Positions 31,518 through 32,815 of a stretch of 64,000 nucleotides of DNA are shown here, piece after piece; position 1 is the stretch's first letter; every line of letters starts with the position of its first letter. The position numbers and the translations under genes were made by a program. Origin of the DNA: Actinotalea sp. Marseille-Q4924 (lineage in GTDB: Bacteria; Actinomycetota; Actinomycetes; Actinomycetales; Cellulomonadaceae); the NCBI RefSeq assembly GCF_916618755.1, contig NZ_CAKAKB010000004.1, forward strand, positions 124,001 to 188,000, written 5' to 3'. Below the pieces are notes generated by a model, which did not search any database, was not told the DNA's origin, and saw nothing but the letters and a program-made list of their open reading frames with translations.

Positions 31518-31832
31518 TCAGGGGTGGTCGACGGGGAAGCCGTGCGCGCGCCACGCGCCGGTCCCGCCGGCCACGTTCGTCACGTCGTACCCCTGCTGGC
31601 CCAGCCACGCGGTCACCTGCGCCGAGCGCCCGCCCGACTCGCAGATGAGGAGCACCTCGCCGGGCAGCGTGGTGACCTCCTGCACGCGGTCGACGAGCTG
31701 CGACAGCGGGACGTTGCGCGCGCCGGGCACGTGGCCCGCCGCGAACTCGTGCTCCTCCCGGACGTCGACGACGGCGGGGGGCTGCGGGGCGGCGAGGCGC
31801 GCGGCGAGCGCGTGGACGTCGATCTCCTGCAC
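31518..31832 (-). CDS. Single-domain rhodanese (sulfurtransferase)
   Basis: 104-residue rhodanese. The domain spans the whole protein: VVDVREEHEFAAGHVPGARNVPL, then the active-site loop with Cys in LLICESGGRS, and the C-terminal NVAGGTGAWRAHGFPV. It moves sulfane sulfur between thiols in the cytoplasm. It is last in the minus-strand module driven from 32769-32784. A short inverted repeat (TGACGG/CCGTCA, about 31501-31520) separates it from nadB. Confidence 0.9.
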   Translation of the reverse strand: MQEIDVHALAARLAAPQPPAVVDVREEHEFAAGHVPGARNVPLSQLVDRVQEVTTLPGEVLLICESGGRSAQVTAWLGQQGYDVTNVAGGTGAWRAHGFPVDHP

Positions 31833-31858
31833 GGTGGTGGCCTCCGAGGGTCGGTGCG

Positions 31859-32020
31859 TCAGCCGCGCTCGAGGACGAGGTCGGGCAGCGCGGCACGGAG
31901 GGTCAGCATGCCCCCCGACAGCATCGCGCTGTCCAGCCCGGCCTGGTCGAGCACGCGGTGGGCGAGGTAGGAGCGGAAGCCGCTCTGGCAGTGCACCCGG
32001 ACGGGGCGCCTCTCTTCATG
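31859..32020 (-). pseudogene. Remnant: C-terminal rhodanese tail of a CoA-disulfide-reductase-like protein
   Basis: The minus-strand frame ending at the TGA at 31861-31859 reads RRPVRVHCQSGFRSYLAHRV, then LDQAGLDSAMLSGGMLTL and a short end LPDLVLERG. This is the second half of a rhodanese domain including its active-site Cys loop, as at the C-terminus of FAD-dependent CoA-disulfide/persulfide reductases. Upstream of about 32020 the similarity stops in non-coding-looking sequence and there is no start codon with a ribosome binding site. It is best read as the surviving end of a deleted gene in the persulfide module. Confidence 0.65.
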
Positions 32021-32090
32021 ACGGTGTCCTTGGGGGTGGTGCCGGGCAGCGCGGCGCGGGGGGACCGTCGAGCGAGGGTCCGCCGAGCCG

Positions 32091-32354
32091 TCAGGCCAGC
32101 GAGAGGAAGAGCTTCTGGAGCTGGGCGCGGTTGGCCTCGGCGTCGTCGCCGCCCTCGCGGAGGCACTGCTCCAGCCCGGTGGCGATGATCGCGAAGCCGG
32201 CGCGGTCCAGCGCCTTGGACGCGGCCGAGAGCTGGGTCACGACGTCGGCGCAGTCGGCGCCCGACTCGAGCATCTTGATGACGCCGCTGAGCTGGCCGTT
32301 GGCCCGGCGCAGGCGGTTGATGACCGGGGTCATGTCCTCCGGGTCGAGCTGCAT
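32091..32354 (-). CDS. CsoR/DUF156-family regulator, CstR-like persulfide sensor
   Basis: 87 residues covering one DUF156 four-helix domain ([19 protein letters not shown], then [17 protein letters not shown]). Cys35 and Cys64 are present. The copper-sensing CsoR triad needs a His four residues before the second Cys; here it is Gly60, so copper binding is unlikely and the two-Cys pattern matches CstR, which senses persulfides. Flanking rhodaneses agree with that. ATG 32354 has GGAGG at good spacing; an ATG at 32372 overlapping the rhodanese stop (ATGA) would add six residues. It probably represses its own operon at 32769-32784. Confidence 0.82.
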
Positions 32355-32368
32355 GGGGGCGTCCTCCG

Positions 32369-32719
32369 TCATCTCGTCACGCGCCCTCCGGCCGTCCGCC
32401 ACGCGGCGAGCCCCCCGGAGAGGCTGGTGGCACGGTACCCCGCCGCGCGCAGCTGCGCGGCTGCACCGCGCGACCGCATGCCGGAGGCGCACATGACCAC
32501 CACGGGGACGTCCTTCGGCAGGCGCCGCGACTCCGTCTGGAGCCGTCCGAGCGGGATGTGCCGCGCCTGCGGGGCGTGGCCGGTGCGCCACTCGTCCTTC
32601 TCCCGGACGTCGACGAGGACGGCGCCGTCGTCCAGCAGGTCGATCGCCCGGTCCACCCGCACCGTGTGAGGCAGGGCGTCGGGGTCGCGGTGCAGGAGGC
32701 GGTCGAGGAAGCCGGGCAT
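32369..32719 (-). CDS. Rhodanese-like sulfurtransferase
   Basis: 116-residue rhodanese. It has a short N-terminal extension ([17 protein letters not shown]), then [23 protein letters not shown], the active-site Cys in [18 protein letters not shown], and [14 protein letters not shown] at the end. The CASGMRS loop differs from the CESGGRS loop of its neighbour, so the pair is not a recent duplication. GGAAGGA precedes ATG 32719. First gene of the module, with a TATAGT -10 overlapping the operator. Confidence 0.88.
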
Positions 32720-32765
32720 CGGGGGTCCTTCCGGGGAGGGGGGAGCGGCGTCGGTGCAGGAAGCA

Positions 32766-32771
32766 ACTATA
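32766..32771 (-). promoter_or_regulatory. -10 box TATAGT of the rhodanese/CstR operon
   Basis: Minus-strand TATAGT, about 47 bases before the first rhodanese start; its 5' edge overlaps the palindrome, fitting simple repression. Confidence 0.55.
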
Positions 32772-32784
32772 CCCCCTGGGGTAT
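32769..32784. promoter_or_regulatory. CsoR/CstR-type operator, perfect palindrome
   Basis: ATACCCCCTGGGGTAT: 7-bp perfect arms around CT, the classic form of a DUF156-family operator (TACCCC...GGGGTA). It overlaps the rhodanese operon -10 and lies 20 bases upstream of the nadC -10, where the nadC -35 should be. Confidence 0.85.
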
Positions 32785-32803
32785 CAGTACGGCGACGGTC
32801 CCC

Positions 32804-32809
32804 TACGGT
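32804..32809 (+). promoter_or_regulatory. -10 box TACGGT, leaderless nadC promoter
   Basis: TACGGT, 6 bases, GTG 32816. The -35 position falls at the right edge of the CstR-type operator. Confidence 0.55.
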
Positions 32810-32815
32810 GTCGGG

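Follow-up and report, generated by a model that had tools for sequence, protein, structure and literature searches.

A partly decayed CstR-type locus between nadB and nadC of Actinotalea and its predicted persulfide regulon

Genes and regulatory sequences between nadB and nadC

The window, the whole stretch of 64,000 nucleotides that was analysed, belongs to a 3.64-Mb genome (6 contigs, completeness 99.99%) which is placed in the Actinotalea genus group. Between nadB and nadC, the minus strand carries rhdB, cstR, a gene stub and rhdA, in this order. The features of the locus are as follows:

29805..31502, plus strand: nadB, L-aspartate oxidase, flanking gene (NCBIfam NF005867, E 3.2e-232, over the equivalog cut-off)
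31518..31832, minus strand: rhdA, single-domain rhodanese of 104 aa, distal gene of the block (Pfam PF00581, E 1.6e-16)
31859..32002, minus strand: remnant of a CoA-disulfide-reductase-like (CoADR), rhodanese-tailed gene, last 47 codons and stop (protein and DNA similarity to genome G013)
32091..32372, minus strand: cstR, DUF156 regulator of CstR type, 93 aa, with Cys41, Gly66 and Cys70 (Pfam PF02583, Trns_repr_metal)
32369..32719, minus strand: rhdB, single-domain rhodanese of 116 aa, first gene of the module (Pfam PF00581, E 9e-19)
32766..32771 (plus-strand coordinates), minus strand: TATAGT, -10-like box of the module (sequence and alignment)
32769..32784, no strand assigned: predicted 16-bp operator ATACCCCCTGGGGTAT (pattern count against shuffles)
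32804..32809, plus strand: TACGGT, -10-like box of nadC, 6 nt before the GTG start (TANNNT pattern)
32816..33733, plus strand: nadC, quinolinate phosphoribosyltransferase, flanking gene (NCBIfam TIGR00078, E 2.3e-87, over the equivalog cut-off)

The stop codon of rhdB overlaps the start of cstR (ATGA), and this ATG was chosen as the cstR start, by which the Cys35, Gly60 and Cys64 of an earlier, sequence-only reading of the locus became Cys41, Gly66 and Cys70. The rhdA gene was also found at the nadB–nadC junction of relatives, in some with the rest of the block and in some without it.

In the 258 bp separating cstR from rhdA lies the 3' end of a reductase gene, which the sequence-only reading had missed. 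The frame of this remnant reads VRVHCQSGFRSYLAHRVLDQ...LERG followed by a stop; the ATG close by is in another frame. Across 46 residues, the encoded fragment shares 93% identity with the C-terminal end of an intact 578-aa protein of the relative G013, and the similarity of the DNA to G013 extends over 31852-32010 (89% over 159 bp, blastn). Against Pfam, the 47-aa remnant matched no family, and against NCBIfam it gave weak matches only, mostly to rhodanese-containing models. Translation of the three minus-strand frames excluded a complete third gene in the cstR–rhdA gap, as only the 47-codon fragment resembles the protein of the relative. The search of the window's own genome with the G013 reductase recovered residues 527-577 only at the locus; the three other matches were partial and 38-40% identical, which ruled out a relocation of the gene elsewhere in the genome.

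The DNA alignment with G013 covers rhdB and cstR, breaks just past the cstR stop and resumes within the reductase gene. As 79 bp in the window genome correspond to 2302 bp in G013, the alignment indicates that about 2.3 kb has been deleted at the locus. Missing relative to G013 are a gene for a 200-aa methyltransferase, the greater part of the reductase gene and the operator that precedes it. The intact G013 reductase has Pyr_redox_2 and Rhodanese domains. The best NCBIfam match of the intact reductase of relatives was the CoA-disulfide reductase model TIGR03385 with 399.9 bits, below the cut-off of 578.8, and the putative name of the protein follows from its domain layout. The gene is intact in relatives such as L066, and only its last 47 codons are left in the window genome.

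The match of cstR to PF02583 had an E value of 9.5e-22 (77.6 bits against a cut-off of 22.8). The top PDB matches were 7mq1-7mq3 (E 3.7e-14, deposited as csoR), which we take to be pneumococcal CstR, with M. tuberculosis CsoR ranking lower (E 6.9e-10). In these alignments, the metal His of CsoR falls on Gly66 of cstR, so that the Cys-His-Cys copper site of copper-sensing CsoR is absent; the Asn which the 7mq1 protein has at this third position, and which is not known to define the CstR family, is also replaced by Gly in cstR. Of the 102 rows of the regulator alignment, one of them from the window, all had Cys41 and Cys70, and position 66 was Gly in 101, Ser in 1 and His in 0; because all rows were selected by similarity to the window's regulator, these counts show a uniform subfamily, not a uniform DUF156 family. 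The score of cstR against the RicR model NF052430 (44.6 bits) was below the cut-off of 175. A tblastn search revealed two further DUF156 proteins in the host genome, both having His at the metal position and both encoded near genes read by eye as P-type ATPases. The missing metal His rules out a copper CsoR identity for cstR, and the alignments support its assignment as a CstR-type regulator. The CstR of Staphylococcus aureus, a DUF156 protein with two Cys and no His, represses genes that handle persulfides. The regulator described here is also of the two-Cys, His-less kind; unlike the S. aureus cst operon, the block has no cstA/cstB and its predicted targets are dispersed. By analogy with named relatives, cstR would sense persulfides or polysulfides. 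Its chemistry may differ from that of S. aureus CstR, since cstR has Gly where the 7mq1 protein has Asn and ScCsoR of Streptomyces coelicolor is reportedly modified on one Cys only (available text of PMC7533328).

The 7-bp arms of the predicted operator are perfect, and the central CT is not self-complementary. With at most one mismatch, the pattern had 1 match in the window against 0.01 expected (100 shuffles), and 4 exact sites were found genome-wide against 0 for the reversed control pattern. The operator agrees with ATACCn6GGTAT, the sequence recognised by ScCsoR, a repressor responding to sulfane sulfur that is described as released by polysulfide (PMC7533328). An operator of this kind is thus present at the own promoter of the cstR module, where TATAGT shares 3 bp with it. 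In the DNA alignment, G013 and G004 have TATGCT in place of TATAGT, and inspection of the sequence revealed no good -35 for the module promoter. The ATACCn6GGTAT pattern was also found upstream of nadC in 13 of the 14 other genus genomes having module DNA there, the site of G001 being degenerate. A 17-bp form of the operator, not the 16-bp one, stands before nadC in Demequina and in two further loci of family f9 (L107, L112, L124, L125, L127, L276, L277).

A TANNNT box followed after 6-7 nt by RTG was present before nadC in 23 of the 24 genomes examined, with the block present or absent, so nadC seems to have its own promoter. This weakens the proposal of the sequence-only reading that the block splits an NAD operon. 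Its other observations at the locus held: the Pfam and NCBIfam matches agree with a DUF156 regulator and two rhodaneses on the opposite strand between nadB and nadC, the alignment with CsoR/CstR-type proteins of the PDB (both Cys, no His at the metal position) with a CstR-like regulator, and the perfect arms, the overlap with TATAGT and the shuffle count with a perfect palindrome overlapping the -10 of the module.

Distribution and age of the block

In 14 of the 19 genomes of the Actinotalea genus group, the window genome included, cstR adjoined nadC in the same orientation. In the family sample, it was beside nadC in 10 of 121 genomes, namely 9 of the 11 of Actinotalea and G039 of another genus, which corresponded to 2 of 25 genera (judged by eye). 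Of the 80 named loci closest to the regulator, nadC was within the fetched flank in 11, of which 6 belonged to the genus group and 5 to Demequina. The order sample of 198 genomes contained the regulator at E <=1e-22 in 65; 29 of its loci were inspected with 1.5-kb flanks and nadC was found in 4, as well as in G276. Two genomes, G011 of the genus (L062 1351-1605) and G276 of family f9 (L278 5317-5574), had cstR between nadC and nadB without the other searched genes. One contig labelled Vibrio cholerae strain 35D (L122) bears an Arthrobacter-like cst locus, which is probably due to assembly contamination.

In three loci of other genera (L082, L083, L088), the nadB and nadC matches were 59-158 bp apart with no block between them, in agreement with the earlier claim that the block is inserted relative to relatives; in some family genomes, nadB and nadC were kilobases apart. 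The regulator was found at the junction in most of the genus group, in G039 and in Demequina, though not across the order; this goes part of the way towards the outcome, the same block at every nadB–nadC junction of the order, that the sequence-only reading had named as refuting it.

In the nadB+nadC tree (30 rows, midpoint root), Demequinaceae and G039 branched outside the rest. The block label needed 4 changes on this tree, one of them being G016, whose contig begins inside the module, and an early gain with later losses fits it. In the CoADR tree (26 rows), the nadC-linked copies did not form one branch in the best tree, and a single origin gave an AU p of 0.103. In four genus genomes (G002, G005, G008 and G012), rhdA was the only gene of the block at the junction; G002, G008 and G012 had a cstR–CoADR locus elsewhere, with its CoADR on a different branch. 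We infer that the block is an old resident of the nadB–nadC junction which has been lost repeatedly.

Related cst modules might instead have been inserted independently in Actinotalea, G039 and Demequina, the junction being a favoured landing site. This would account for the dispersed nadC-linked CoADR rows of the best tree, for the five named Demequina blocks, which lack a matched rhodanese gene and have the 17-bp operator form before nadC, and for a different cst locus beside nadC in G114. However, the orientation and neighbours are identical and one origin of the nadC-linked CoADR was not rejected in the AU test, and such parallel insertions appear unlikely. A recent horizontal acquisition of a small rhodanese–regulator cassette into the nadB–nadC operon, as the sequence-only reading had suggested, is very improbable. 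It agrees with the genomes of other Cellulomonadaceae genera in which nadB and nadC are adjacent without the block and with the four genus genomes having only rhdA at the junction, but the regulator occupies the junction in the same orientation in 14 of 19 genus genomes and likewise in Demequina and in G039, a genome of another genus, and the 4 changes on the nadB+nadC tree, G016 included, are fitted by an early gain followed by losses.

Operator sites elsewhere and the predicted regulon

The host genome contained seven operator sites, 4 exact and 3 with one mismatch. Five of the seven, that of the module included, precede persulfide-type genes. The sites outside the module are:

C1:262914, exact: before the gene of a 104-aa rhodanese, followed by that of a metallo-beta-lactamase–rhodanese protein with a persulfide-dioxygenase (PDO) layout
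C1:295087, exact: before the thioredoxin gene trxA
C2:521809 (G000:C2:521809-521824), exact: before tRNA-Gln
C1:254494, one mismatch: overlapping the start of a gene for a 138-aa secreted rhodanese
C3:754688, one mismatch: about 110 bp upstream of a gene for a type III sulfide:quinone reductase (580 bits, cut-off 525)
C1:159600, one mismatch: beside a pirin-like gene (read by eye)

The metallo-beta-lactamase–rhodanese protein did not match any NCBIfam persulfide-dioxygenase model, and its candidate name is based on domain layout. The two sites with no adjoining persulfide gene are those at tRNA-Gln and at C1:159600. The former was ruled out as a CstR target, as its upstream half is part of a leader located just before tRNA-Gln and conserved in the family (L281-L310) as (t)accccca; this sequence is complementary to the first bases of the tRNA itself and gives rise to the operator-like site. 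CCCC was present within the last 6 nt of this leader in 23 of 30 loci.

At least one exact operator site was found in each of the 19 genus genomes, with 0 for the reversed control. The survey of the genus comprised 51 sites, from 40 loci among the matches listed, outside the nadC block, and 3 loci of the window genome. A trxA, rhodanese, PDO or CoADR match followed within 400 bp of 31 of the 51 sites, compared with about 10% of random positions in the same loci. Sorted by neighbour, there were 12 sites before trxA, 14 before a rhodanese gene, 1 before PDO and 4 before CoADR, with 6 at tRNA-Gln and 14 in other surroundings; 20 of the 51 had no persulfide gene by the test used. Among the 14 other sites, two were located before type III sulfide:quinone reductases and one before a DsbD-type membrane protein.

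The sulfide:quinone reductases behind operators at L177 (80-1393, minus strand), L209 and L227 match the NCBIfam 'selenoprotein subtype' model. At L223 (5390-5596) and L236 (minus strand, before 7915), near rhodanese-PDO-like genes, the operator adjoins the gene of a small protein with CSPARCSxCGxVTWSGCG. At L207 (204-1105, G003), an operator lies between an apparent rhodanese fragment and a DUF6803 gene.

The operator positions predict in silico that cstR controls genes of persulfide metabolism. Outside the block, the putative members newly seen here are the rhodanese–PDO-like pair and trxA and, with one mismatch, the secreted rhodanese and the sulfide:quinone reductase. That the locus senses copper through a CsoR, with the rhodaneses as accessory genes, is barely credible: the regulator is a DUF156 member, CsoR and RicR sites are similar to the module palindrome (available text of PMC7533328) and one genus site (L212, G005) stands before an apparent metal P-type ATPase gene, but the metal His is missing, the RicR score is below the cut-off, the two other DUF156 proteins of the genome have the His and lie near apparent P-type ATPase genes, and the identified targets are mostly sulfur genes.

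The operator of the block is located between the divergent module and nadC. That CstR would also repress nadC, linking de novo NAD synthesis to persulfide stress, is nevertheless considered improbable. The spacing between the operator and the nadC box in 15 genomes was 8, 9, 9, 9, 17, 19, 30, 30, 30, 42, 44, 46, 55, 60 and 79 nt. In 9 of them, the operator ended 8-30 nt before the box (42-79 nt in the six others), and at such a distance it would cover or crowd the nadC -35 region. The nine short spacings group at 8-9, 17-19 and 30, approximately whole helical turns apart; the phasing of about 10.5 nt among them had a permutation value of 0.00015 (0.0015 with sisters collapsed), with the 30-nt cut chosen post hoc. 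For all 15 spacings, the 10.5-nt phasing was weak (0.06, or 0.31 with sister genomes collapsed) and a 12-nt period fitted better. Three Demequina-group loci, placed outside the phasing test, had spacings of 19, 31 and 33 nt and a looser box. The retention of cstR alone at the junction in G011 and G276, which belong to different families, speaks for the control of nadC, and the degenerate operator of G001 speaks against it. Also against it, nadC has no operator in the four genus genomes that lack both cstR and rhdB at the junction. In the open-access literature searched, judged by titles and abstract openings, no paper treated a CstR–nadC link.

Proposed explanation and its meaning

We read the locus as belonging to a CstR-type regulon in partial decay, of a kind well known from other bacteria. 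With a probability of about 0.8, the block is the remainder of a CstR-controlled persulfide-detoxification operon, long resident at the Actinotalea nadB–nadC junction. The reduced regulator would bind ATACCCCnnGGGGTAT across the -10 and block rhdB–cstR. Rising persulfides or polysulfides would modify Cys41 and/or Cys70 and release the repressor, and the rhodaneses then produced would shuttle sulfane sulfur. The same repressor would control in trans the rhodanese–persulfide-dioxygenase-like pair and trxA, and probably also the secreted rhodanese and the sulfide:quinone reductase. Sulfide and persulfide would then be dealt with by the rhodaneses together with the putative dioxygenase, the thioredoxin and the quinone reductase. 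The binding, cysteine modification and induction steps are modelled on named relatives. The deletion of about 2.3 kb would have removed most of the CoA-disulfide/persulfide-reductase gene, its own operator and the methyltransferase, and the regulator is proposed to have been kept for the targets that remain to it.

CstR homologues are described as often repressing rhodaneses, sulfite exporters and sulfide:quinone reductases (available part of PMC10318464). The ScCsoR circuit consists of four genes, a sulfite transporter among them, in the text available (PMC7533328), and shares with the present one an actinobacterial CsoR-like two-Cys repressor, the ATACCn6GGTAT operator and the control of PDO and rhodanese genes, here predicted. 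Unlike in that circuit, as far as the text available goes, the PDO-like pair lies at a distant locus and the regulator stands with rhodaneses between nadB and nadC. In Enterococcus faecalis, CstR controls two rhodaneses (RhdA and RhdB) and the CoA-persulfide reductase CoAPR (PMC9405070, available part), so the intact block of the relatives represents a familiar kind of operon, with a CstR-type regulator, rhodaneses in most cases and a rhodanese-tailed CoADR-like protein. It differs from the E. faecalis operon, as presented there, by its actinobacterial branch, an additional methyltransferase gene in several relatives, the nadB–nadC site and, in the window genome, the reductase stub.

One operator sequence yields a testable Actinotalea persulfide regulon, predicted to include the module, the rhodanese–PDO-like pair, thioredoxin, the secreted rhodanese and the sulfide:quinone reductase. 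The locus is also a case of a regulator outlasting the main enzyme of its own locus and, in two bacterial families, of a sulfur-stress regulator adjoining an NAD gene.
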